The notes beneath the pieces are model-generated. The model saw only the letters and a list, made by a program, of their open reading frames with translations. It had not been told where the DNA came from and ran no database searches. From contig NZ_QTQI01000009.1 in the NCBI RefSeq assembly GCF_003853705.1, positions 170,932 through 234,931 of the forward strand: a stretch of 64,000 bases of DNA, in the 5' to 3' direction. The stretch comes from Burkholderia sp. Bp8992 (GTDB taxonomy: Bacteria > Pseudomonadota > Gammaproteobacteria > Burkholderiales > Burkholderiaceae). Shown here one piece after another: positions 52,220 to 64,000 of this stretch; positions within the stretch are counted from its first letter, which is position 1; every line of letters begins with the position of its first letter. The position numbers and the translations under genes were made by a program.

Positions 52220-52774
52220 ATGAAGGATGCTCGCGTGGCGCTTGCCCATCGATTTCTGCGGATCGCCGGCGCATCGGCCGCGCTGCTCGCCGGTTGCGGC
52301 ACGGCCGCCGCGGCGCCCGCCCCTGCATGCCCGTCACCTTCGTTCGACCGTTATCCGGCACCGGCCGCCAGCGCGCCGCGCAAGCCGGCCGCATCGCCCC
52401 GGTTGACCAGCAAGGAAGCGCGCCTGTACCGCACCGTGATTCGCGACGCATTCACGCAACCGGCCAATTTTGCCGGTCACTATCGCGTGGCGATCTGGGG
52501 TTGCGGCACGGATTGCCGGAATTTCGCGATCGTCGACAAGGTCACCGGCGCGACCTATACGATGCCGGGCGTGACGGCCATCTCGGGCGTGATGGGCAAC
52601 GACGACGAGCGCGTCGAGTTCCGCGCCGGCAGCACGCTGCTGATCGTCGCCGGCTGCTTCAACGACGCTTGCGACGACAACCATGCGAAGGCGGCCCGGT
52701 TCTTCTACGAATGGACCGGCACGCGCTTGCGCCCGATCGGCACCTGTCCGCTGGCCATCGAGCCGGTTCAGTGA
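52220..52774 (+). CDS. predicted lipoprotein or secreted protein of unknown function
   Basis: A 184-aa product. The N-terminal signal ends at LLAGCGTAAAA, so Cys26 could be lipidated. The mature part has several cysteines (WGCGTDC, AGCFNDACDD) probably forming disulfides. It includes FAGHYRVAIWGCGTDCRNFA and VTAISGVMGNDDERVEF, a pattern I have seen only in hypothetical proteins. It ends 17 nt before the NodB-like gene, so the two may be cotranscribed. Confidence 0.72.
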   Translation: MKDARVALAHRFLRIAGASAALLAGCGTAAAAPAPACPSPSFDRYPAPAASAPRKPAASPRLTSKEARLYRTVIRDAFTQPANFAGHYRVAIWGCGTDCRNFAIVDKVTGATYTMPGVTAISGVMGNDDERVEFRAGSTLLIVAGCFNDACDDNHAKAARFFYEWTGTRLRPIGTCPLAIEPVQ

Positions 52775-52790
52775 GCGACGCGGTCGATCC

Positions 52791-53369
52791 ATGACATCCA
52801 TTCACCTCAGCTTCGACGACGGCCCCGGCCCGTCGACACCCGCGTTGCTCGACGTCCTGCGCGACGCATCGTGCAAGGCAACCTTCTTCCTGCTCGGTAA
52901 AAATCTGGCGGGCGCACTCGACGTCGCCGCGAGAATGGCGCGCGAAGGCCACCGGCTCGGCAATCACACGCATTCGCACGCAAGGCCGGGCGCCCTGGCG
53001 AACGACGCACTGATCGACGAGATCGAGGCGACCGACGCGCTGATCCGCGATGCCTGTCGCATGGCCGGCGTGGCCTCGCCGGACGCGATCCCGCTGCGTC
53101 TTCCCTACGGGCTGATGCCGCAGGACGATCGCGCCGGCGTGCTGGCGCGATTGCAGCGCGAACACACGGGCTGGACCGCGATACTGGACGACTGGCAGCG
53201 GCCCGCGCCGTCGCCGCAGGCGCTGTTCGACGCGATGTGCGCGCATGTCGACGCCAGCCTGGCGAAACATCGCGACGTGCTGTTCTGCATGCACGACGGG
53301 TCGCGACATGGCGAAGCGCGGCCCAACACCGTCGAAGCCGTACGCCTGTTCCTGAATCGGCAGGACTGA
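52791..53369 (+). CDS. polysaccharide deacetylase (NodB/CE4) family, cytosolic
   Basis: CE4 enzyme of 192 aa without a signal peptide. The catalytic motifs are SFDDGPGPSTPALLDVL (Asp-Asp), GNHTHSHARPG (the metal-binding His pair), RLPYG and, near the end, FCMHDGSRHGE. It should hydrolyse N- or O-acetyl groups. The lack of an export signal and its position next to glycosyltransferase, phosphotransferase and CmcI-like genes suggest an intracellular small-molecule or nucleotide-sugar substrate rather than cell-wall polymer. Confidence 0.88.
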   Translation: MTSIHLSFDDGPGPSTPALLDVLRDASCKATFFLLGKNLAGALDVAARMAREGHRLGNHTHSHARPGALANDALIDEIEATDALIRDACRMAGVASPDAIPLRLPYGLMPQDDRAGVLARLQREHTGWTAILDDWQRPAPSPQALFDAMCAHVDASLAKHRDVLFCMHDGSRHGEARPNTVEAVRLFLNRQD

Positions 53370-53381
53370 AGCAGCGGCCGG

Positions 53382-54347
53382 TCAGCGTCCCGGTGCCGCG
53401 CTGTCCAGCAACTGCCGCCAGCCACCGAGAAAGCCGATGCCGGGCCCCGGCACCCACAAGCCGCGCTGTGCGGCTTCCAGATGAATCAGCGTCTGGTCCG
53501 CGCAGAACAGCATCGCCAGCGCATCGCGATTGGTGCGCATCCAGCCCGGCACGGCATCGGACCGCGTCGCCGCATAGGCGAGCAAGCCGGCCTCCCATCG
53601 CGGCGCATCGAACACGAAGCAATCGTCCCGGCCCGCATCACGCGACAGCGCGAACAGCGCAAACGCCGCCTCGAGCCACTGCGCACCCTGCCCCGCATCG
53701 TCGAAATCCAGCACGCCGTTCACCGCGTGCCCGACATACAGCAGGTTGCCCGCGTGATAGTCGCCGTGCAGCCAGTGCACCGGCCCTGTCAGCCAGTGCG
53801 CGGCGGCATCGAGATGTGCGCCGATCCGCCCGATCGCCGTGGCGTAATCGCCGCTCAGGCCGCCCGGCAGCGACGGCATCGAGCGCGACGCCACGCGCGC
53901 ATGGCGCGAGGAGAGCCACGCCAGCGGCGTCGATGCGTTCACGGGTATCGCGGCCAGTGCCGCATGCAGATGTGCCAGCGCGCGCATCGCATCGATCGCC
54001 CCCGCGTGAGCGTCATGCGGCAGGCCGGGCTGGCCGTCGATATGTTCGAACAGGTGCAGCCAGCGTCCATCGTCGACCTGCACGCCGGCTTGCGCATCGA
54101 CGGTCGGCCGCAGCCGCGGCAGCGCGGGCAAGATCGGCCCCGTGCGCGAATCGCCGAGACGACCGAGTATCGACGCCTCGCGATGCACCTGCTCGACCGG
54201 CTTGCCGGGCCACGACACGCGCAGCACCGCGCGCCCCGCGTCGCACTCGACGAGATACGTTTTGTTAGTATGGCCCGATGCCAGCGCGTGCACGCGTGCC
54301 GGCACGATGTTCCAGTACCGGCGCAGCCACGGTTCCAGCGTTTTCAC
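53382..54347 (-). CDS. aminoglycoside phosphotransferase-family kinase (first copy)
   Basis: APH/choline-kinase-fold protein of 321 aa. The catalytic loop is LHGDYHAGNLLYVGHAVNGV and the metal site is LDFDDAGQGAQWLEAAFALF. GTG 54347, preceded by TAGGAGTGA, is the better start; an in-frame ATG at 54374 would overlap the divergent CmcI-like start at 54373. Such kinases phosphorylate hydroxyls of small molecules such as homoserine, choline, aminoglycosides or sugars. A second, unrelated APH-fold gene lies in the neighbouring operon. The substrate is unknown. Confidence 0.85.
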   Translation of the reverse strand: MKTLEPWLRRYWNIVPARVHALASGHTNKTYLVECDAGRAVLRVSWPGKPVEQVHREASILGRLGDSRTGPILPALPRLRPTVDAQAGVQVDDGRWLHLFEHIDGQPGLPHDAHAGAIDAMRALAHLHAALAAIPVNASTPLAWLSSRHARVASRSMPSLPGGLSGDYATAIGRIGAHLDAAAHWLTGPVHWLHGDYHAGNLLYVGHAVNGVLDFDDAGQGAQWLEAAFALFALSRDAGRDDCFVFDAPRWEAGLLAYAATRSDAVPGWMRTNRDALAMLFCADQTLIHLEAAQRGLWVPGPGIGFLGGWRQLLDSAAPGR

Positions 54348-54372
54348 GTCACTCCTACTCGTTGCATTGACC

Positions 54373-55062
54373 ATGTCAGAGCGTCCTTCGGCCCGCATGC
54401 GGGACATCAATATCGAATGGCTGACGCGCGCTGCCGAATTCGATCATCTGTTCCAGACGCGCTGGCTCGGCGAGCGCTTCTTCCATCTGCCCGGCGACAT
54501 GCTCGCGCTCCAGGAGCTGATCTGGCGCGAGCGCCCCGACTGCATCGTGCAGACCGGCATCGCGGCGGGCGGCGGCGTCGTGTTCTCCGCGTCGATGCTG
54601 GAACTGGCCGGCGAGCACGGCCGCGTCGTCGCGATCGAACCGCACCTGCGCAACGAAGTCAGGCAGCGCCTGCAATCGCACCGGCTCGCCCATCGCATGA
54701 CGCTGATCGAAGGCGATTCGTGCGCAGCCGGCACGCTCGCGTCGGTACGCGCGCAGATCGGCGACGGCGCGCGCGTGATGGCGATCCTCGACCTCACGCA
54801 TACGCATGCGCACGTGCTGCGCGAACTCGAATGCTATGCGCCGCTCGTGACGCCCGGCAGCTACGCGATCGTGATGGATACCATCATGGAGTATCTGCCC
54901 GAGTCGATGTTCGACGGCAAGCCTTACGGCCGCGGCAACAACCCGGCGACGGCCGCGCGTGAATTTCTCGCGCGCGACGACCGGTTCGAAGCCGACTTCG
55001 ACATCGAGGACCGCGTGCTCATGACGCTGTCGCCAGGCGGTTTCCTGAAGCGAGTGCGCTGA
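54373..55062 (+). CDS. CmcI-like methyltransferase/hydroxylase family protein
   Basis: SAM-dependent enzyme of 229 aa resembling cephalosporin hydroxylase CmcI and related rhamnosyl O-methyltransferases. The SAM-binding segment is TGIAAGGGVVFSASMLELAG. Acidic residues follow in IEPHLRNEVR, IEGDSCAAG and LDLTHTHAHVLRELE. The metal site is suggested by MDTIMEYLPESMF. It begins 25 bp from the divergent APH-like gene and ends with a 44-nt antisense overlap of the glycosyltransferase. The family acts on natural products or cell-surface sugars; function here is unassigned. Confidence 0.85.
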   Translation: MSERPSARMRDINIEWLTRAAEFDHLFQTRWLGERFFHLPGDMLALQELIWRERPDCIVQTGIAAGGGVVFSASMLELAGEHGRVVAIEPHLRNEVRQRLQSHRLAHRMTLIEGDSCAAGTLASVRAQIGDGARVMAILDLTHTHAHVLRELECYAPLVTPGSYAIVMDTIMEYLPESMFDGKPYGRGNNPATAAREFLARDDRFEADFDIEDRVLMTLSPGGFLKRVR

Positions 55063-56224
55063 TCAGGCGCGCAGCCTCCGCCGAGCCGTCGCGCACGTAG
55101 CTGTCGCGGATGCGCGCCGCGTGCTCGCGCAGCGAACCGGGACGCAACAGGCGTTCGAGCGCATCGGCAATCGCCGCGACGCCGGCCTGCTGCAGATCGA
55201 GCACGCACCCCGCACCGGCCCGCTCGACGAAGTGCGCCGAATGGAACTGGTCGTTGCAGAACGGCGACAGCAGCATCGGCACGCCGCACGCGAGCGACTC
55301 CATCACCGAATTCGCGCCGCCGTGGCTGACGAACGCGTGCGTGTGCCGCAGCAGCGCCAGTTGCGGCGCATAACGCACGGCGATCACACGCTCGTCGGCG
55401 GCCGGCAGCAGGTCCGAGTCGACCAGTTCGCCCACCGACAGCACCAGTTGCGCCGACGTCGCGCGCGTCGCGTCGATCACCTTCGCGAACAGGTCCGGGT
55501 GGTAGTAAAGCTGGCTGCCGAGCGACATGTAGACGAGCGGGCGAGCGGCGTCGATCCGCTCCCACGGGAACGCCGTCTCGTCGCCGCGCGGGCCCGACGG
55601 CATCGCGGGGCCGACCAGCTCGACACCCGGCGGCGGCGCACCGACCAGCGCGTCGGTCGTGAACGCGAGCGTCAGGTGCGGCGACAGGACATCGCAACCG
55701 CGAAAGCGCGCATCGAGCCCGTAGCGCGCAAACAGATCGGCACGTTCCGGCGCGAGCCAACGCACCGTGCGCAGCAGTTCCGAATCGAGATCGTCCGGCA
55801 GCACCGGGTTCAGCGAATTCGACATCGACACCCACGGCAGCCTTTCCAGTTCGGCGGCAATCGCGGCCGCATAAAGCAGCGGATCGATCACGACCACGTC
55901 GGGCCGCCAGTCGCGCAGCACCGCGCGGATGCCGTCCACCTGCGACGGTGCCAGGTCGATCAGCAGCGTACGGATCCAATGCCGCAGCCAGCCGGCATCG
56001 CGAATGTTCGCGGCGAAGCTCTCGCCGCGCGACAGGTCGTGGCGCTCGGGCGTCTCGCGCGGCCCGACGAACGCGAAGTCGCCGGCGCCGTCGAGCTGTG
56101 CGCTGATGTCGGCCGGCGCGTAGAACGCGACGTTGCAGCCCGCGGCGCGCAGGTGCTGGGCCGGACCGATGCACGGATTGACGTGGCCCTTCTCGGGCAC
56201 CACGCAGAACAGGATGCGTTTCAT
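55019..56224 (-). CDS. UGT/MGT-like glycosyltransferase
   Basis: GT1-type glycosyltransferase of about 401 aa with GT-B fold. It has an N-terminal acceptor domain (KRILFCVVPEKGHVNPCIGP and AQHLRAAGC) and a C-terminal nucleotide-sugar site HGGANSVMESLACGVPMLLS, followed by PFCNDQFHSAHFVERAG. This is the macrolide- or small-molecule-glycosylating class, not a polymer-forming enzyme. ATG 56224 lies 7 nt after the previous gene's stop and has no Shine-Dalgarno of its own, so it is probably translated by coupling. Last gene of the five-gene operon. Confidence 0.9.
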   Translation of the reverse strand: MKRILFCVVPEKGHVNPCIGPAQHLRAAGCNVAFYAPADISAQLDGAGDFAFVGPRETPERHDLSRGESFAANIRDAGWLRHWIRTLLIDLAPSQVDGIRAVLRDWRPDVVVIDPLLYAAAIAAELERLPWVSMSNSLNPVLPDDLDSELLRTVRWLAPERADLFARYGLDARFRGCDVLSPHLTLAFTTDALVGAPPPGVELVGPAMPSGPRGDETAFPWERIDAARPLVYMSLGSQLYYHPDLFAKVIDATRATSAQLVLSVGELVDSDLLPAADERVIAVRYAPQLALLRHTHAFVSHGGANSVMESLACGVPMLLSPFCNDQFHSAHFVERAGAGCVLDLQQAGVAAIADALERLLRPGSLREHAARIRDSYVRDGSAEAARLISALASGNRLATAS

Positions 56225-56231
56225 GAGCAGT

Positions 56232-57299
56232 TCAGGCTGGGCGATGCACGGCATCGACGTGAAGGTGCGCGAGATGATCGAGGATCAGCGCCAGCGTCGC
56301 CCACAACACGCGTTCGGTATCGGCCTGCAACGTGGGCGCGGCAAGCCCGAGCGAGTCGGCCAGCGCATGCGTGCGGTCGCGATCGAGCAGCACGCCGAGA
56401 TCCATCGCCGGCGCGAGCCGCCCGCGCTTGGGGCCGTGCACCAGACGATCGGGCAGGTTCAGCCGCGCACCGAGATCGCGCAGGCATCGCTTGTCCGGGT
56501 CGGGCGCGATGCTCGTCAGATGGGCGACGACGGCCGCATCGACGAACGGCGGATGCAGGTCGACCGACGCCGCATCGAACAACGCGTGGCACAGCGGCAG
56601 ATAGTTGGCCGACTGGTCGCGGCGCAACACCTGATCCGCGCCGTCGCCGGTAATCGCGACCTCGATGCCGTCTGCCGCCATCGCCTCGGCCAGCAACAGC
56701 TTCGCGACCGGATGCAGATTGAACATCGGCTCCTCGACCGCATGGGTCGTTCTCGGCAGCGCCGCGACGAAATCGGCCTCGGTCGCGCGCACGATCTTCA
56801 CGTTCGCCTGCATCTGCATGGCGAGTTCGAGCGCCGCGTCGAGTTCGCAGTAGTCGGGCATGTCGGTCGCGAGGATGTACGCCGTCACGTGCGGCAGCGC
56901 GCCGAGTTCGCGCAGCAACGCAAGCAGCAGCGCCGAATCGAGCCCGCCGCTCAGCGCCAGCGCGACGCACTTGCCGCTGTCGAGCGCGCGCTGCAGCGAC
57001 GCGCGCAGCACGGCGTCCAGGTCGGCGTGCTGCGGCCGTTCCGGCGACGGCTGCACCGTCAGCCCTTCCGGCGAACGGATCAACGCGTGCCCGGGCGGCA
57101 CCGCGAGCACGTCGCGCAGCACGGTGCGGCCGACGCGACGCTCGCCGCTCAGGTAGCCCGCGATGGCGGCCGTGTCCGGCGCACCGGCCGGTTGTTCCGC
57201 CGCACGCAGCGTGGCGCGAATGCCGGATGCCGACACGCCGCTGCGCGGATGGTAGTGCAGACGATCGAAACCGAACGGGTCGCGCGTGCCGACGATCAT
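56232..57299 (-). CDS. asparagine-synthase-like ATP-dependent amidotransferase lacking the glutaminase half
   Basis: Protein of 355 aa. The P-loop pyrophosphatase motif LALSGGLDSALLLALL (S117-S122) and the downstream site AITGDGADQVLRR mark the AsnB synthetase domain, which activates a carboxylate as an acyl-adenylate. The N-terminus begins IVGTRDPFGFDRLHYHPRSG, which corresponds to the last third of the glutaminase domain. The catalytic Cys and most of that domain are absent. It would use ammonia or an amine, as beta-lactam synthetase or lasso-peptide cyclase does. The ATG overlaps the radical SAM stop (ATGA). Confidence 0.85.
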   Translation of the reverse strand: MIVGTRDPFGFDRLHYHPRSGVSASGIRATLRAAEQPAGAPDTAAIAGYLSGERRVGRTVLRDVLAVPPGHALIRSPEGLTVQPSPERPQHADLDAVLRASLQRALDSGKCVALALSGGLDSALLLALLRELGALPHVTAYILATDMPDYCELDAALELAMQMQANVKIVRATEADFVAALPRTTHAVEEPMFNLHPVAKLLLAEAMAADGIEVAITGDGADQVLRRDQSANYLPLCHALFDAASVDLHPPFVDAAVVAHLTSIAPDPDKRCLRDLGARLNLPDRLVHGPKRGRLAPAMDLGVLLDRDRTHALADSLGLAAPTLQADTERVLWATLALILDHLAHLHVDAVHRPA

Positions 57300-58174
57300 G
57301 GAAAACGAGCCTTCAAGGTGTCCACTTCAATGCGTTTCAGGATGCGATGCGGCGCCACCGGCGCGCTGCCGCCCTGGCAATGCAGGCACGCTTCGAGCGG
57401 CGCCTCGCGTTGCAGATACGCGAGCATCGCGTCGAGCATGCCTGCGTCGTCGCGCAGCGGCAGGCCGTCGGCCTGAAAATCCTTCTCGCCCTTGTAGAGC
57501 GTATGGAAATGCGCGGGACGCGTGCACGTGTAGAACATGCCGTCGCGAATCATATGGCAGCGCTCGCGGATCCAGCAATCGTGATAGAGGCGCTGCGCTT
57601 CGTCGCGGTCCGTGCCGGGCTGCGCGCGATTCATCGTCGTGAACACGTCCTGCACCTTCCAGTTCAGGCGCACGTCGAAACGGGCAGCCTGGTGTTCGAC
57701 ATGCGCGATCAGGTCGGGCGAAAGCGCCGGCTTCGGATAGCGCGAGATCGTCAGCGCATCCACCGCCTGCCAGAACGCGTCAGGCATCTCGCCGAGTTTC
57801 AGCCCGTTCGTCGTGACGGAGATCACGGGCGCAATGCCCGTCGCGCGCACGCGTTCGATCAGTTCGACGAGCGCCGGATGCAGCAGCGGTTCGCCGCCGA
57901 CCAGCTTGAACATGCGTGGGCTCAACACTTTCGCGGCCTGGCGCAGATCGGCCTCGATCGACTCGGGGCGCGCATGCCACTCGGGCAACAGCGGCGACAG
58001 CGAGCAGCATTCCGCGCAGGTCAGGTTGCAGTGATCGACGATATGCGCTTCCAGCGAGCGCGTCCGGATGCGGCCGTTTTCGACGCGGTAGTCGCGATCG
58101 AGCGGCGGCGGAAAGACATGCTGCCGCTCGCCGGACGGCGACGGATTCGGGATCTTGTTCGGATTCGCACTCAC
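57296..58174 (-). CDS. radical SAM enzyme with SPASM-like C-terminal cysteines
   Basis: Iron-sulfur enzyme of about 292 aa. The CxxxCxxC motif is VDHCNLTCAECCSLSP (C49, C53, C56 from this start), and the SAM site LVGGEPLLHPALVELIERVR follows. The C-terminal cysteines (YHDCWIRERCH, MFYTCTRPAHF, CLHCQGG) suggest auxiliary clusters. GTG 58174 lies two bases after the upstream stop, preceded by AGGAA, and is preferred to ATG 58231. It is the third gene of the operon. It could epimerise, dehydrogenate or cross-link a small molecule or peptide; no substrate is seen. Confidence 0.88.
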   Translation of the reverse strand: MSANPNKIPNPSPSGERQHVFPPPLDRDYRVENGRIRTRSLEAHIVDHCNLTCAECCSLSPLLPEWHARPESIEADLRQAAKVLSPRMFKLVGGEPLLHPALVELIERVRATGIAPVISVTTNGLKLGEMPDAFWQAVDALTISRYPKPALSPDLIAHVEHQAARFDVRLNWKVQDVFTTMNRAQPGTDRDEAQRLYHDCWIRERCHMIRDGMFYTCTRPAHFHTLYKGEKDFQADGLPLRDDAGMLDAMLAYLQREAPLEACLHCQGGSAPVAPHRILKRIEVDTLKARFP

Positions 58175-58175
58175 T

Positions 58176-59171
58176 TCAGGTTCCTGCTTCCACACAACGG
58201 GAAAAGAAATCGACGAGATGGCCACGCGCATCCACCATCGCGGACGCCATCGTCACCGCGCCGTTCAGGTGCGACGCGAAGCGCGACGGATCGTCGAGCC
58301 AGCCTTGCACGACCCACAGCTTGAGCGCGTGCTGCAGGCACGCGGCATCGACCGCCCATGCGACGCATGCGGGATTCACCGGCCGCACGCGCCGGTATCC
58401 GCGCACGAACGCTTCCGCCAGCTGCGGCGCTTCCAGCGGCAGATGATTCAGGCACCGCACCAGTTCGTACTCGCGCGGCGCGCCGATCGACGCTTCCCAG
58501 TCGAGGATCAACGGCGGCAGCGTGCCCGTGAACAGATAGTTGAACTGGTTGTAGTCGTTGTGGATCGGGCGCTGCGGATCGTCCGCGGGAAACGCGTCGA
58601 TGCTGCCCGGATAGTAGCGGTCGAGCATGCGCAGCGCGAGATCGACATAGCGGCGCAGGTTCTCGGCGCTGTCGTTCGAGCGTGCGCGATTCAGCGCGTC
58701 GAGCAGGCTGCCGCGCACGGCATCGGCGTCGATCGCGGTCAGCCGCGCGCGGATCGTGTCGAGCGACGGCAGATGCAGGTGTTCGAGGCTCAGATGCAAT
58801 GCTGCCAGACTCGCGCCGAGCGCATCCCATTCGGCCGGCGAGAACGTATCGTAGGTCCTGAACTGCCCGGCTTCCCAGCGCGTCACCATCGCATGCGAAT
58901 TTTGCCCCGTCCACAGCGGTTCGCCGGACGTCGTGCGCTTCAGCGTCTGCACATGGAATCGGGTATCGCCGTGCGTTTCCAGATGAGCGAGGACAGCGGC
59001 TTCCTTGGCCGCGCGTGCATGGTGTCCGGACGCGTAGAGCTTGACCGCCACATCGCCGCCGCTGCCGGTCGGCAGATGCCACACGCGTTCGCTGACCTGG
59101 CGCGGCGCCTTGCCCCGGCCGAGCGCATAGGCATCGCGAATCTCGTCGAAGGTGGCGGCAAGCGCGTCCAT
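58176..59171 (-). CDS. aminoglycoside phosphotransferase-family kinase (second copy)
   Basis: APH-fold protein of 331 aa. Catalytic loop QRPIHNDYNQFNYLFTGTLP (HNDYN replacing HGDxxxxN) and metal site LILDWEASIGAPREYELVRC. It is clearly different from the APH-like gene at 53.4 kb. Its ATG directly follows the FkbM-like stop, so the two are translationally coupled. It is expected to phosphorylate a hydroxyl of an intermediate or to protect the producer. Confidence 0.88.
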   Translation of the reverse strand: MDALAATFDEIRDAYALGRGKAPRQVSERVWHLPTGSGGDVAVKLYASGHHARAAKEAAVLAHLETHGDTRFHVQTLKRTTSGEPLWTGQNSHAMVTRWEAGQFRTYDTFSPAEWDALGASLAALHLSLEHLHLPSLDTIRARLTAIDADAVRGSLLDALNRARSNDSAENLRRYVDLALRMLDRYYPGSIDAFPADDPQRPIHNDYNQFNYLFTGTLPPLILDWEASIGAPREYELVRCLNHLPLEAPQLAEAFVRGYRRVRPVNPACVAWAVDAACLQHALKLWVVQGWLDDPSRFASHLNGAVTMASAMVDARGHLVDFFSRCVEAGT

Positions 59172-59921
59172 TCAGATGTGCTCGGCCGGCCCGTGCCGAT
59201 ACGGATGACCGGTCAGGAACGTGTTGTGCCCGACGTAGCGCAGCTTGTACATCGCCGGCCGGAACAGCACCGAAGGATCGTTGTTCGCGATGCCGAGCAA
59301 CGGATACAGGTCCTGCCGCACGAAGAACGCGTTGTTTCCCATGTCGTCACAGCAGACGAGTTCATAGCCCTTCTGCCGGCCGAGATGCACGAGCGATTCG
59401 AGGCTCGCGCCGTAATAGGTCGAGCCGTCCCATTCGTGGTCCGGGTTGAAGCACATGACCCAGCGTTCGGGGGGCGTGTAGTACGGGTTGTATTCGATCA
59501 CGACGATGCGCGGCTGGAACGCCTGCAGGCCGCGCCAGACCCAGTAGTCGTTGCCGTCGATGTCGATCGACAGCAGGTCGAAGTCGGCCGGTACGTTCGC
59601 CTCGGCGAGCAGTTGGTCGACCGTGTCGGGCTGGACGCGGTCGTGGTGCAGGCGCACGCGCTCTGCGCCCGCGTAGTGCGCGGCCAGCTTGCCGAACCGG
59701 TATGCGCTGCCTTCCACCAGCACGCCGGCCCAATCCTGCTCACGCAGCAGCCGCGCGGTGTTGCTGTTGCGCAGGCCGTCGCTCGCGCCGATATCGACGC
59801 AGAAGCGGTTGATCGGCACGATCCGCTCCATCAGGCGCGACAGGATGGCCTCCTCGGTGCCCTGCGCATACAGGCTTGGCGCAAGGCCGGACAGGTCGAG
59901 CGGGAGAGGATGGTCCTGCAT
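59172..59921 (-). CDS. FkbM-type methyltransferase-like protein
   Basis: SAM-dependent methyltransferase-like protein of 249 aa. The first glycine-rich element is RFCVDIGASDGLRNSNTARL, and the second is DLLSIDIDGNDYWVWRGLQA, with IVVIEYNPYYTPPERWVM after it. These correspond to FkbM family motifs (DIGA, D-I-E/D-G). It is the first gene of the five-gene operon, transcribed away from the ABC-F remnant. Target unknown. Confidence 0.82.
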   Translation of the reverse strand: MQDHPLPLDLSGLAPSLYAQGTEEAILSRLMERIVPINRFCVDIGASDGLRNSNTARLLREQDWAGVLVEGSAYRFGKLAAHYAGAERVRLHHDRVQPDTVDQLLAEANVPADFDLLSIDIDGNDYWVWRGLQAFQPRIVVIEYNPYYTPPERWVMCFNPDHEWDGSTYYGASLESLVHLGRQKGYELVCCDDMGNNAFFVRQDLYPLLGIANNDPSVLFRPAMYKLRYVGHNTFLTGHPYRHGPAEHI

Positions 59922-60114: not shown

Positions 60115-60239
60115 TTACTCCTGCCCCCGACTCGTCAGGAACTCTTCATAATTCCCGCCGAAGTCGAACAGCGTGCCGTCCGTGCGCACTTCGATGATCC
60201 GGTTCGCCAGCCCGCTCACGAATTCGCGGTCGTGCGACA
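60115..60239 (-). pseudogene. 3' fragment of YbiT-like ABC-F ATPase gene (left copy)
   Basis: Encodes only the tail [20 protein letters not shown] through [15 protein letters not shown], the last 40 or so residues of an ABC-F protein. The second ATPase domain's H-loop (SHDREF) is visible. Beyond 60239 the reading frame runs into unrelated island DNA, so it has no start. It differs from the right copy by one amino acid (SRGQE here, SQGQE there). Confidence 0.85.
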
Positions 60240-60358
60240 GCCATAGCCGCCCCGATAGCTGGGGCCGTGTAACCAATGTAGTTCGGCGGCTCCTTCGTCA
60301 TATCCGGACCACTGCGGACAGCAACGCATATCAACTTCCGAAACTTCTTTTCGTCCAT
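60146..60358 (-). CDS. small ORF reading across the island junction
   Basis: Possible 70-aa product. AGCGAGG precedes ATG 60358, and the first part MDEKKFRKLICVAVRSGPDM, TKEPPNYIGYTAPAIGA looks like a genuine small phage or plasmid protein. From about residue 38 the frame enters the ABC-F repeat out of register (arginine-rich tail). It is best read as a gene truncated by the integration junction. Low confidence that it is expressed. Confidence 0.4.
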   Translation of the reverse strand: MDEKKFRKLICVAVRSGPDMTKEPPNYIGYTAPAIGAAMAVARPRIRERAGEPDHRSAHGRHAVRLRREL

Positions 60359-60596
60359 ACAACCTCGCTGTTGGTTAGCACTAAATCTCCATACTAAACA
60401 AGGCTTCAAATTTCAATCGTTATGCGAAATTAATTACAGATCCCTTGAACCCTATGCCGTACGCACCAGTGCTCTTAGTCCTTCCCTGGTTGCAGCCAGT
60501 CCACGTAGATTGCTCTAGCGATACGCCCTATTGCCAAGATACTTGGTACGGGTGTGAAATAACGGAAGGTCGCGTCAGATCAAAACGGGGAATACG

Positions 60597-61046
60597 ATGC
60601 CGGACGTAACAACAATAGCCACGGTGCTCACAAGCCTAAAAACCGCGACGGACATCGCGAAGTTCTTACGCGAGAGTGATCTATCAATCGAACGAGCAGA
60701 GTTGAAACTAAAACTCGCGGAGCTCATTGGCGCGCTGGCTGAGACGAAAATTGAACTAGCCGAACTACAAGAGATTATTTCGGGAAAAGAAAAACGCATC
60801 GCAGAGCTCGAGGAAGCATTCGAAGCGAGAGACTTACTCATTCGCTATCGTGACGCCATGTACTGTATCGATGAAAATGGCAAAGCGACTGGAGTGCCGT
60901 ATTGTCTCCGGTGCTGGGAAAATGATCGCAAGCAAAAACAACTTGTCTCAGTAGCATCCGCAGTTCGACCCACGAATACCTGTACGAATTGCGGCCAACA
61001 ATACAACGCGCACAACACGCACGAAATCCGCCCCAGCCAATCGTAA
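60597..61046 (+). CDS. coiled-coil protein with C-terminal zinc ribbon, unknown function
   Basis: A 149-aa protein. Residues about 25-80 form a heptad-rich coiled coil (LSIERAELKLKLAELIGALA, then ETKIELAELQEIISGKEKRI). Two CxxC pairs at C103/C106 and C129/C132 make a zinc ribbon. GGGGA lies six bases before the ATG. Composition is much more AT-rich than the chromosome. First gene of a three-gene cassette in the island. Family not recognised; the layout suits a small adaptor or nucleic-acid-binding protein. Confidence 0.75.
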   Translation: MPDVTTIATVLTSLKTATDIAKFLRESDLSIERAELKLKLAELIGALAETKIELAELQEIISGKEKRIAELEEAFEARDLLIRYRDAMYCIDENGKATGVPYCLRCWENDRKQKQLVSVASAVRPTNTCTNCGQQYNAHNTHEIRPSQS

Positions 61047-61062
61047 CCATGACGATCCAGTT

Positions 61063-61353
61063 ATGAATTCAGCCATCTGCTCTGCGATTAGCAATAAGCA
61101 CCTCCTTGAACTTCGCTACCACGGATATTCCCGCTTGGTAGAACCTTACGCGTACGGCCGCGAAGGAGGTGGCGTAATACTGCTACGCTGCTACCAACAG
61201 TCCGGCGGCAGCGAAAGCGGGCAGACCACTGGGTGGAAATTACTCAAAGTAGCCGAAATATTTTTGATTCAAGAAATTAATAAATCATTCAATCCACGTC
61301 AAACATACAGGCACAATGATAAAGCAATGAAGTTTATTTTTTGCCAGATCTAA
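61063..61353 (+). CDS. small WYL-like domain protein
   Basis: Single-domain protein of 96 aa. Its core LELRYHGYSRLVEPYAYGRE, followed by GGGVILLRCYQQSGGSESGQ and TTGWKLLKVAEI, has the beta-strand order and Tyr/Trp pattern of WYL (SH3-like) ligand-sensing domains. The end RHNDKAMKFIFCQI matches a widespread family of small WYL-like proteins. It has no HTH. It begins 16 nt after the upstream gene and 48 nt before the membrane protein gene. WYL domains are common in regulators of defence systems. Confidence 0.7.
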   Translation: MNSAICSAISNKHLLELRYHGYSRLVEPYAYGREGGGVILLRCYQQSGGSESGQTTGWKLLKVAEIFLIQEINKSFNPRQTYRHNDKAMKFIFCQI

Positions 61354-61401
61354 TTCATAAAATTACCAACCCAATAAACTCGATTGCATTACAAGGAAAA
61401 A

Positions 61402-62709
61402 ATGACCACAACCCCATTGACCGATCGACTCAGAAAAGCCAAGGAAAAATGGGACACCCTTTTCCCGAACATATCCGAGACCGTACAAGGGCAGAGCAAC
61501 ATTCAAATACCAAAGGAAACAATTACACTCTGGTTTTCGAGCGTAATCGCCAGCATGGATCGCGTTGAGCAAACAAATCCAGATCCTGGTCTCAAATCAA
61601 TCTTTTGGCAAACGATAGAAAGTTCCGTCGCCTCGACCGAAAATCACTTAAATGCCGCAATGCAAAATGGCGCCCCATGGATTCAACAAACCTCTAACAC
61701 CTTACTTAGCTACCTTTGGAGCATTAGGTCCTCAGTTGCGTGGCTCCTACCGACACCCATTGATATCGACGCGAGTACCCAAATTCCACGTTTTGCGGAA
61801 CTAGAGGCACAAGCAGCGGGTGTTCTTGCCACCTTCTCAAGAACAAGCGAAGCAGAGCGAAAAATGGGGCTAATACTTTCAAACAGCGAAACAGTAAATA
61901 CCGAGATAGCAGCTCTTTCCGAAAAAATAATCAGTTACGAGCGGGCATCCCAGACGTCAAGTATCAACGCCGCTGCCAGCGCAACGGCATCCGAAGCAGA
62001 AAAATTAAAAGTCGACAGCTACGTCCAAGACCTGAGCGTAGCCACCATTAAGCAACAGGAGCTTTTTGATTATTTTGAGAACAAGCGAGCCGAGGTAGAT
62101 GCGACATTGCAAGGTGCAAGCAGGGTCGCCCTGGCAAAATCTTTCGAAGATAGACGCAAAGAATTGACAAAGATCCAGTACTTTTGGGCGATATTGTTCT
62201 TCGTTGGAATTTGCACTCTGACCGGAGTTGGTGTTTATTTGGGAATTAGCGTCCTACAAGAAGCGAAGGCCGCAACAGCCGCTGTCGCGGCTGCTCCCGC
62301 CGCTGCTTCCACTTCAGCGGCGGCCGCTACCGCCAGCGTCAAAGCAAGTCAATCCAACCTACTATTCTCGTTATTGCGATTCCTAATTCTCGCACCGGTC
62401 GTATGGTTTACTTGGTTTGCAGCAAGACAATATGGTCACAGCCAACGACTCGGGGAAGATTATGCATTCAAATCAGCCGCCGCACACGCATACGTTGGAT
62501 ACAAAGAAGAAATGGACGGCGACGAGAATATGATTAAAATGCTACGCGAGTATGCAGTAAAGAATTTCGGGGCAAATCCGATTCGCGTTTTATCAAAAAA
62601 TGAACCAGCATCTCCGCTTCATCAAGTTTTCGATAAGATACTAGACAAAGCCAGCCCAGATAAACTCATTGATTTAATTAAAGATACCCTTGAAAAAGGA
62701 AAAAACTGA
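61402..62709 (+). CDS. two-TM coiled-coil membrane protein, candidate defence effector
   Basis: A 435-aa protein. A cytosolic N-terminal helical region (1-255) with coiled coil (about 150-255) is followed by TM1 (about 259-283), an alanine-rich linker (about 287-315), TM2 (about 320-341) and a cytosolic C-terminal domain. That domain holds GEDYAFKSAAAHAYVGYKEE and the amphipathic end LDKASPDKLIDLIKDTLEKG. AAGGA precedes ATG 61402. Base composition is AT-rich and foreign to the chromosome. Family not recognised. Membrane effectors of this general layout occur in phage-defence operons; that role is inference. Confidence 0.75.
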   Translation: MTTTPLTDRLRKAKEKWDTLFPNISETVQGQSNIQIPKETITLWFSSVIASMDRVEQTNPDPGLKSIFWQTIESSVASTENHLNAAMQNGAPWIQQTSNTLLSYLWSIRSSVAWLLPTPIDIDASTQIPRFAELEAQAAGVLATFSRTSEAERKMGLILSNSETVNTEIAALSEKIISYERASQTSSINAAASATASEAEKLKVDSYVQDLSVATIKQQELFDYFENKRAEVDATLQGASRVALAKSFEDRRKELTKIQYFWAILFFVGICTLTGVGVYLGISVLQEAKAATAAVAAAPAAASTSAAAATASVKASQSNLLFSLLRFLILAPVVWFTWFAARQYGHSQRLGEDYAFKSAAAHAYVGYKEEMDGDENMIKMLREYAVKNFGANPIRVLSKNEPASPLHQVFDKILDKASPDKLIDLIKDTLEKGKN

Positions 62710-63036
62710 TCAAACCATACTAAGCACCTGCCATAAGCTCCACGCGGGCGGCCAATTGCTCCGGGGACGCTCGCTTGCCCTGCTGAATTTTCGGACAAGA
62801 CAGCCGCCGCTCTTATTGTGACCGACAAACAGGGGCGACGCGATGCCAAGAGAAACCTATTGAATGAGGTACGGGCTTGGCTGGATGCGGATAGTGAACG
62901 TGGGAAAACCGCCCTGCCAACTTCCGCCAAGGAAATTATTGATGATCTACAGCGGATCGAAACACAGCTACTAGGCAGCGTATGACGCGCGTCGAAGCTG
63001 TACGGGACGGCGATTCACTGCCGTCCCGCTCCGGCC
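62710..63036. other. island region with a gene remnant
   Basis: About 330 bases. Besides the fragment at 62776-62985 it holds a perfect 8-bp stem GGGACGGC-N8-GCCGTCCC at 63004-63027, just beyond the end of the tape-measure remnant. No intact gene. Confidence 0.5.
62776..62985 (+). pseudogene. 3' remnant of an unidentified gene
   Basis: The frame ending TAVLP-like..RIETQLLGSV (more exactly LPTSAKEIIDDLQRIETQLL, GSV) is open for about 70 codons with chromosome-like codon use. It has no start codon with a ribosome-binding site and is closed upstream by a TAA. It looks like the C-terminus of a mobile-element or phage protein. Family not recognised. Confidence 0.5.
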
Positions 63037-63720
63037 TTAGATTTGTCCGTATTTGATTTGAGCTGCGTAGCCTCCTTGGCCTCGCATGTTCTGCGAATGC
63101 GCCAGTCTACGAACGCTTGCATATGCAGCCTGCATTGCCTTGAGGTCTTCGGGAGACCAGCCGCCGCCCGGAACGTGCAAGCGCACATCACCACCGCCTG
63201 AGCTTCCCGAACTGCCACCGCTCGAACCGACGTAACCGCCGGTAGCGAAGTGGGACATTTGGCCTCGGTTGATAGATTCCAACAGGCCGCGATACCGGAA
63301 CGTGCTAGCGGCGTTATCAACGAATTCCCCGTTGGAGAGCATCGCGGGAATGACTGTCGCTAGTACCGGTCCCCGCCCGTGACGTGGCCGCCGTCCGCGA
63401 GGTGGAACGCGCCGGCAAAGCTTGTTGCGCTACCGCCGGCAGACGCACCGAAACCCAGCAGCGAGGAGAACGCCTGATTAGCCGCGATCTTTGCGAAGTC
63501 CGGGAGAATAAACGCCGTAAGGTCGGCCATGCTGAGCTTTCCCGTGGTAATGAACTTATCCATTGCGCTCCGAACCCGCCCGAACGCCTGGTTAAATCCT
63601 CCCGCGAACGCCTCCGCGTTGGTCTTGCCGTTGGCAGTGAGGCTCGTTACGGCGATGCTCAATTGATCGCTATACGAGTTGCGGATTTGGTTCTGTTATT
63701 GCTCGTATGACGCGTAGACC
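63037..63720 (-). pseudogene. decayed phage tail tape-measure protein, C-terminal part
   Basis: Reading from the right, an in-frame TAA follows YASYEQ. The frame then resumes NQIRNSYSDQLSIAVTSLTA and continues to AFHLADGGHVTGG. There a one-base shift and, a few codons later, a second one-base shift are needed to recover GTGTSDSIPAMLSNGEFVDN, followed by AASTFRYRGLLESINRG. ADGGxVTGxGTxTSDSIPAMLSxGEFVxNA is the hallmark of lambda-type tape-measure C-termini. So it is a broken prophage gene, with at least one nonsense codon and two frameshifts. Confidence 0.85.
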
Positions 63721-63798
63721 GCGAGCCCAAACACATAATTTTGCATCGCGTTTTCTCGATCGAATCGGCCGTGACGCCCTCGGCGGCGTGGGTACAAC

Positions 63799-63828
63799 AA
63801 AAAGCCCGCCGAGTACAACTTGGCGGGC
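63799..63828 (-). terminator. terminator copy 2 of the ABC-F gene
   Basis: GCCCGCCGAG, TACAA loop, CTTGGCGGGC with the A run before it (T run on the minus strand). Same as the left copy except for one wobble pair and the loop. Confidence 0.88.
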
Positions 63829-63875
63829 CTCTTGGGTACAATTAGGTACGTCAGATTGGGTACAGGCTAGGACAC

Positions 63876-64000
63876 TTACTCCTGCCCCTGACTCGTCAGG
63901 AACTCCTCGTAATTCCCGCCGAAGTCGAACAGCGTGCCGTCCGTGCGCACTTCGATGATCCGGTTCGCCAGCCCGCTCACGAATTCGCGGTCGTGCGACA
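63876..64000 (-). CDS. YbiT-like ABC-F ATPase, C-terminal end (rest beyond window)
   Basis: Only the last 41 codons are in the window: [20 protein letters not shown] and the tail [12 protein letters not shown]. The SHDREFV H-loop and the GN(Y)xxYLxSxG(I/Q)E ending are typical of ABC-F proteins of the YbiT type, which act on ribosomes. The gene's 3' end served as the integration target of the island to its left. Completeness beyond the edge cannot be seen. Confidence 0.8.

Follow-up and report, generated by a model that had tools for sequence, protein, structure and literature searches.

What might eight tightly packed genes encoding two kinases, two methyltransferases, a glycosyltransferase, a deacetylase, a radical SAM protein (rSAM), and a truncated AsnB-like synthetase produce in Burkholderia sp. 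Bp8992? We analyzed a stretch of 64,000 nucleotides (the window, in whose numbering all positions are given). All eight open reading frames were found at 52791-59921, and in a Pfam search each of the eight proteins matched the family for which it is named (Table 1). On balance, we favor the view that the genes are a self-contained cassette for a small, hydrophilic, sugar-based metabolite that is aminoglycoside-like. Literature searches found no paper matching this gene cluster; one hit, PMC3684757, was rejected, as it treats a biofilm system of Rubrivivax.

Table 1. The cassette genes and their two neighbors, in window coordinates.
Feature	Position	Strand	Evidence and remarks
FkbM-family methyltransferase	59172..59921	-	PF05050 1.7e-7; opens five-gene operon
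APH1, APH-fold small-molecule kinase	58176..59171	-	PF01636 1.1e-15; motifs HxDxxxxN and DWE
HygY-related radical SAM protein	57296..58174	-	PDB 7wzv 2.6e-38; start revised to GTG 58174
AsnB-like synthetase without N-terminal catalytic glutaminase half	56232..57299	-	PF00733 6.6e-25
GT1 glycosyltransferase (UGT), macrolide/UGT type	55019..56224	-	PF00201 4e-21
CmcI / rhamnosyl O-methyltransferase family protein	54373..55062	+	PF04989 1.1e-60
APH2, second APH-fold kinase	53382..54350	-	PF01636 2.4e-21; ORF reaches 54410
NodB-type (CE4) deacetylase	52791..53369	+	PF01522 3.8e-23
ABC-F ATPase gene, 3' end remnant	60115..60246	-	43/47 residues match FkbM-adjacent gene of genus loci
hyp52, NodB-side chromosomal flank, outside cassette	52220..52774	+	borders empty site in locus L135

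The genes are packed with almost no space between them. A sequence-only reading had described five genes fused with minimal gaps or overlaps (59921 to 55019), and the junctions agree: FkbM and APH1 directly abut, APH1 and rSAM are separated by 1 nt (given the revised rSAM start), rSAM and AsnB overlap by 4 nt, and AsnB and UGT are 7 nt apart. The 3' ends of UGT and CmcI overlap by 44 nt, those of NodB and APH2 are 12 nt apart, and CmcI and APH2 are divergent and 22 nt apart if APH2 begins at GTG 54350, which is preceded by AGGAG and is its likely start. The largest intergenic gap among the eight genes is thus 22 nt, which leaves no space for a precursor peptide gene; we rejected a RiPP cluster, in keeping with the earlier remark that no precursor peptide was obvious. 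No Rfam family reached the gathering threshold anywhere in the window, and the yield of promoter and terminator scans was not above that from shuffled sequence.

The eight genes form one cassette that is either present or absent as a whole. FkbM, rSAM, and NodB are each present in 31 of 65 Burkholderia genomes, and these are the same 31 for each gene (the three sets were matched against one another by eye). The order and orientation of all eight genes were unchanged in 30 of the 31 loci fetched from the genus, and all eight were also found in cassette order in six further genera and one MAG. The order was intact in all three loci from outside the genus whose FkbM match was strong (3/3) and in 27 of 38 loci of a named scan, some of which are from the same genomes as the other locus sets. 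Outside Burkholderia, the cassette genes were the only families common to most neighborhoods. Median dN/dS values of 0.12-0.30 across the eight genes indicate purifying selection, and together with the fixed gene order across genera they place the arrangement beyond chance. These results settle whether the families co-occur elsewhere: they do, and the genes move as one unit.

The cassette is maintained within Burkholderia and scattered through other lineages, and its carriers include many soil and opportunistic bacteria. Hosts include B. cenocepacia, B. cepacia, B. lata, and B. arboris, and, outside the genus, some Bordetella, Achromobacter, and Paraburkholderia. FkbM was 92-97% identical in 29 of the 31 genus loci and 82% and 87% identical in the remaining two. 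APH2 aligned only piecewise in two Bordetella loci (L088 and L091). NodB and APH2 were both looked for in Paraliomyxa and neither was found, indicating that deacetylation is not universal.

A cassette-negative genome (L135) has an empty site, with hyp52 bordering its NodB side, and comparison with this site shows that only the eight genes lie between hyp52 and the ABC-F gene. When sought, hyp52 was not found in roughly one-third of loci from the genus; in L032 it lies 1.4 kb from NodB, so the NodB-side neighbor is not constant. On the FkbM side, the ABC-F remnant is both the chromosomal neighbor and the junction with inserted DNA. We rejected its identification as ettA: NF011646 was matched above its threshold and the EttA model was not, indicating another ABC-F ATPase. 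From about position 60247 there is low-GC DNA with matches to tail tape-measure proteins, a separate insertion that adjoins the cassette. We also rejected the cassette as phage or plasmid cargo, based on the empty allele and on plasmid matches that were few or remote: AsnB had no match at 1e-5 among 72,556 plasmid records, all FkbM matches were under 60% identity, and rSAM had five, all remote.

The rSAM protein passes Fer4_12 and just misses Radical_SAM (28.8 bits against a cut-off of 29.5). Its true start is later than that of the open reading frame; in the alignments, homologues have stops at residues 6 or 14, and all stops seen there precede the revised start, so we rejected decay of the gene. 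The protein is 37% identical to a Streptomyces homologue and, more generally, 35-37% identical to HygY-like relatives over 80-86% of its length. The CxxxCxxC motif (C68, C72, and C75, P0003 numbering) and five further cysteines (219, 225, 236, 282, and 285) were all retained in 45/45 loci. C219, C236, C282, and C285 align with cysteines of the actinobacterial proteins and, by analogy with BtrN, are presumably ligands of an auxiliary cluster. Residue 183 of the SAT1 protein is the counterpart of C225 in the alignment; we take residue 183 of HygY to be the hydrogen donor. All five downstream positions align in HygY and its relatives. HygY belongs to the Streptomyces hygromycin B pathway, from which the cassette differs in having no 2-deoxystreptamine genes. 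The best solved relative is the radical SAM protein of PDB 7wzv, 7wzx, and 7x0b, presumably the spectinomycin enzyme SpeY, a dehydrogenase. That protein has a serine where P0003 has Cys225, as would fit the cassette enzyme being an epimerase and not a dehydrogenase.

The cassette enzyme probably works like HygY and is probably not HygY. In a tree in which 11 of 20 inner branches were left open, the cassette rSAMs and the actinobacterial HygY-type proteins formed two clades (100/100 support) separated by a long branch, placing the cassette enzyme outside the HygY clade; given this separate clade, its substrate may differ from that of HygY. The actinobacterial loci, fetched with up to 10 kb on either side, contained no other cassette gene. 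The relationship to HygY favors aminoglycoside-like sugar chemistry, and of the two products suggested by the sequence-only reading, a modified sugar or an amino-acid-derived metabolite, it points to the sugar.

The AsnB-like protein lacks the catalytic half of its glutaminase. It has 355 amino acids against a model of 517 positions (TIGR01536), matches that model from position 137 onward with 83 bits (below the equivalog cut-off of 267.1), and has no GATase match in the Pfam search. It had been called glutaminase-less, which is correct for the front half with the catalytic cysteine; the amidotransferase domain keeps its back half. The spacing between the rSAM and AsnB matches was at most 74 nt in 43/43 loci, leaving no room for the front half in any of them. 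The motifs SGGLDS, GDGxDQ, and C-terminal GxK were retained in the same proportion (43/43). The AsnB family includes beta-lactam synthetase, lasso cyclase, and the moenomycin proteins MoeF and MoeH. The cassette protein has these motifs in common with synthetases of the family and, unlike them, starts partway through the glutaminase domain.

In several hosts the cassette has a ninth component linked to it, a full-length AsnB, which recurs but is often absent. A close full-length AsnB was found in 4/31 cassette-positive versus 0/34 cassette-negative Burkholderia genomes (one-sided hypergeometric p ~0.05, calculated by hand, with genomes that are not independent). It was not found in the other 27 of the 31, nor in 10 of 14 other cassette genomes. 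Based on gene order and a UGT scar, and not on the tree with its many open branches, the nine-gene form is probably the older.

The catalytic His, Asp, and Asn of APH1 and its DWE motif were retained in 45/45 loci, and the NodB motifs FDDG, HxxxH, RLPYG, and HD in 42/42. APH1 and APH2 have only a 28-residue motif match to each other, and we rejected the idea that they are recent paralogues. The UGT matched TIGR01426 at 3.6e-39, under the curated cut-off. The NodB protein scored 80.3 bits against an equivalog cut-off of 240 and, from its sequence, seems assignable only as a CE4 deacetylase.

From this gene set we infer a series of reactions, in which the order as well as the individual steps are predicted. 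The UGT would transfer a hexosamine, probably GlcNAc, onto an acceptor drawn from primary metabolism, and NodB would remove the acetyl group to give a free amine. The 5'-deoxyadenosyl radical of rSAM would take a hydrogen and one carbinol carbon would be inverted, with the conserved Cys225 as the likely source of the hydrogen given back. FkbM and CmcI would O-methylate two hydroxyls. The truncated AsnB would adenylate a carboxylate and couple it to an amine or, alternatively, to ammonia that does not come from its own glutaminase; the full-length AsnB of some hosts may add an amidation that depends on glutamine. Both APH kinases would phosphorylate the sugar, one of them possibly for biosynthesis or self-protection. 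The predicted product is a small, O-methylated, phosphorylated, epimerized amino-sugar compound with an amide.

None of the eight cassette genes encodes a transporter or a regulator or forms a scaffold, which is unusual for an exported antibiotic. The product might instead be a small molecule that stays inside the cell, such as a protective solute or mycothiol-like cofactor, although we consider this unlikely. The lack of an exporter and regulator, the isolation of the genes between the empty-site flanks, and a NodB protein with no signal peptide apparent by eye would all fit. Mycothiol and bacillithiol are made by a glycosyltransferase, a deacetylase, and an amide ligase, a logic that the cassette recalls; it differs in having an additional epimerase, kinases, and methyltransferases, and the mycothiol and bacillithiol enzymes presumably belong to other families. 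For a solute, radical epimerization plus two methylations would be elaborate, and the patchy distribution (31/65 genus genomes) suits an accessory product more than a core cofactor.

It is improbable that the genes modify the repeat of a capsule, exopolysaccharide, or O-antigen, for example as an epimerized, methylated, and amidated uronic or amino sugar. Polysaccharide loci hold FkbM, CmcI/rhamnosyl O-methyltransferase, AsnB amidotransferase, and NodB domains, and remote FkbM relatives are on plasmids of Rhizobium, Sinorhizobium, and Azospirillum. However, in the Pfam search no Wzx, Wzy, or ABC exporter, lipid-linked glycosyltransferase, or nucleotide-sugar gene was found among the eight, which are the only genes lying between the hyp52 and ABC-F flanks, and the glycosyltransferase is of the macrolide GT1 type. 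Cassette flanks compared between genera had nothing in common beyond small groups of related loci. With no flippase, polymerase, or such enzymes in the cassette and with mostly unshared flanks, a role in capsule or LPS is not supported.

Two other proposals have very little probability. The APH domains and the resemblance of the UGT to macrolide-inactivating glycosyltransferases could suggest a set that phosphorylates, glycosylates, methylates, and deacetylates foreign antibiotics, but resistance models were far under their cut-offs (Mgt, 90.5 bits against 700; APH(3')-IVa, 16.3 against 530), and an rSAM epimerase, a truncated AsnB, and five coupled genes in fixed order would be unexpected. 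Equally remote is a glycolipid or lipid-linked signal like a Nod factor, which the NodB and sugar O-methyltransferase domains might recall; the eight genes include no acyltransferase, acyl carrier, or chitin synthase, and the curated NodB model was missed.

We return to the aminoglycoside-like metabolite. More tentatively, the cassette may define a new class of natural product in Proteobacteria and a myxobacterium, in which an aminoglycoside-like compound is made by eight or nine genes with an rSAM epimerase and a truncated AsnB in tandem and with no dedicated scaffold, exporter, or regulator. If the reading is correct, many Burkholderia and some Bordetella, Achromobacter, Paraburkholderia, and others would have a common pathway to a polar metabolite, one that could escape mining based on PKS and NRPS genes. 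The cassette would also be a testable system for radical sugar epimerization outside the actinobacteria, and for how an AsnB synthetase functions once half the glutaminase domain is gone.

The sequence-only reading had placed eight open reading frames of a biosynthetic-type cluster in the window, and all eight were at the positions it gave and in the families it named.

Coordinates of the eight cassette genes in the window
Gene	Position	Strand	Family source
FkbM	59172-59921	-	Pfam
APH1	58176-59171	-	Pfam
Radical SAM (rSAM)	57296-58174	-	Pfam
AsnB-like	56232-57299	-	Pfam
UGT	55019-56224	-	Pfam
CmcI	54373-55062	+	Pfam
APH2	53382-54350	-	Pfam
NodB	52791-53369	+	Pfam

With the preferred starts of rSAM (58174) and APH2 (54350), intergenic gaps among the eight genes were 22 nt or less. 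The rSAM frame is open from 58231, and in some homologues that frame has stops at residue 6 or 14; the likely start is the GTG at 58174, 1 base past the APH1 stop. For APH2 the probable start is the GTG at 54350, before which stands AGGAG.

The eight genes are one unit. Genus-wide presence counts were based on FkbM, rSAM and NodB, with rSAM scored as present at an identity of at least 79% and weak hits from other radical SAM proteins disregarded. Each was found in 31 of 65 Burkholderia genomes, the same 31 for all three (sets compared by eye), and in none of the remaining 34. All eight genes, alike in order and orientation, were present in 30 of the 31 neighborhoods of the positive genomes; at the 31st locus (L051) the contig ended after four cassette genes. 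A search of 299 genomes of the family with FkbM gave 24 matches with at least 80% identity (21 in Burkholderia) and three remote ones (29-32%). The three strong matches outside Burkholderia (L063-L065) had the full cassette, and the other cassette genes were absent from the 20 kb fetched for the three remote matches.

Among the matches listed, with at most five candidates scored per genome, rSAM was found at E 1e-15 in one of 398 phylum-wide genomes, a Burkholderia. A scan of genome contigs that took the rSAM alignment as its query yielded 38 loci; several of these contigs are from genomes already counted, so the counts are not additive. All eight genes were in order at 27 of the 38 loci, from Burkholderia, two Paraburkholderia, Trinickia, Chitinasiproducens, Achromobacter, Verticiella, four Bordetella (two ansorpii, genomosp. 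13 and LUAb4) and a proteobacterial MAG (L096). The APH2 alignment was fragmented in L088 and L091. Two loci ran into contig ends (L082 and L097, a Luteibacter MAG), and rSAM was the sole cassette gene at eight (six actinobacterial, two Rickettsiales). The Rickettsiales MAGs (L105, L106) have remote rSAM relatives (28-31%) with cysteines placed differently.

One locus, from the myxobacterium Paraliomyxa miuraensis, had only FkbM-APH1-rSAM and CmcI, and the truncated AsnB and UGT were both at one place on a second contig (L101 and L110: FkbM-APH1-rSAM-CmcI and AsnB-AsnB-UGT). This division between two contigs suggests two functional modules. Searches without a positive control found no match to APH2 or NodB in the Paraliomyxa genome or in the Luteibacter MAG, whose cassette contig stops short of their place.

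The cassette genes are under selection and keep their characteristic residues. Median dN/dS between the window and Burkholderia (30 or 31 loci per gene) ranged from 0.115 (FkbM) to 0.299 (APH2). Exact residue counts were made over 45 loci, 42 to 45 of which have each gene. The rSAM cysteines and the APH1 His, Asp, Asn and DWE were kept in 45/45, SGGLDS of AsnB in 43/43, and the APH2 catalytic residues (as in APH1), UGT HGG and NDQ, and NodB FDDG, HxxxH, RLPYG and HD in 42/42. The first D of the NodB DDW motif was kept in 40 of 42.

The cassette AsnB starts in the middle of its glutaminase domain, a truncation that is old and fixed. At 43 of 43 loci the AsnB match began at residue 1 or 2 and lay within 74 nt of the rSAM match, leaving no space for the absent glutaminase half (~130 residues). 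In MAG L096 and Paraliomyxa a second AsnB, of full length and with its glutaminase domain intact, sits between truncated AsnB and UGT; in the Luteibacter MAG it comes immediately past truncated AsnB and runs to the contig end, and in Trinickia it is next to NodB. At E 1e-60, 4 of 14 genomes outside Burkholderia had a full-length AsnB and 10 did not. Of the 31 positive Burkholderia genomes, 4 carried a homologue (66-67%) elsewhere in the genome, three of them on contig C3; none of the 34 negative genomes had one. Directly behind three of these four homologues (L122-L125, from G007, G027, G041 and G012) was a decayed UGT N-terminus, a scar of the cassette gene order; none was seen behind the fourth (L122). 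We read the full-length AsnB as a ninth component that is often lost. Its separate position in Burkholderia could reflect relocation, or the gene could be a relic of a second cassette.

In Burkholderia the cassette has recurrent flanks. An ABC-F ATPase gene (NF011646) had its 3' end within ~300 nt of FkbM at 26 of 31 loci and within 3 kb at two more, and hyp52 was on the NodB side at 21 of 31, with just a quarter of it in L045. We inspected the corresponding place in 8 of the 34 cassette-negative genomes and found no cassette genes in the 18-20 kb fetched from each. The ABC-F gene was near hyp50 in seven; the L130 stretch was without it. In L135, ~110 bp separate hyp52 from the ABC-F gene, where positive genomes carry the eight genes. 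Outside Burkholderia, flanks were common only to small groups of loci. At 60115-64000 of the window, a 43-codon remnant is what stands beside FkbM as the ABC-F 3' end, and the DNA past it is low in GC and has phage tail tape-measure matches. At four loci (L022, L028, L043, L047) a second 3' end of the ABC-F gene lies ~1.3-5 kb farther out, so mobile elements seem to use the gene as an integration site.

The best solved relative of rSAM was PDB 7wzv (2.6e-38). The cassette enzyme also shared 37% identity with a Streptomyces sp. SAT1 protein, which we take to be HygY; an APH(7'') hygromycin phosphotransferase is encoded within the same 21-kb stretch as the SAT1 protein. HygY is reportedly a twitch radical SAM epimerase that acquires dehydrogenase activity when one cysteine, presumably Cys183, is mutated. 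Cassette C225, present in 45/45 loci, aligned with the cysteine at SAT1 residue 183, whereas 7wzv has a serine there, leading us to predict an epimerase rather than a dehydrogenase. The enzyme is HygY-like but distinct: cassette rSAMs formed a clade of their own in the tree, so their substrate is likely a different one.

The data show the gene set, its unity, the selection on it and its kept residues; we infer the reactions, their order and the product. A sugar-based small molecule would be built by radical epimerization, deacetylation, amide formation and two O-methylations, and would be glycosylated and phosphorylated. There was no transporter, regulator or scaffold gene within the eight-gene unit, and because the cassette has no exporter, an intracellular metabolite is still a live alternative for its product. 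Literature searches by combinations of enzyme-family names found no paper on the eight-gene cluster. We believe that it is best called a small saccharide-type biosynthetic cluster with a distinct HygY-like epimerase.
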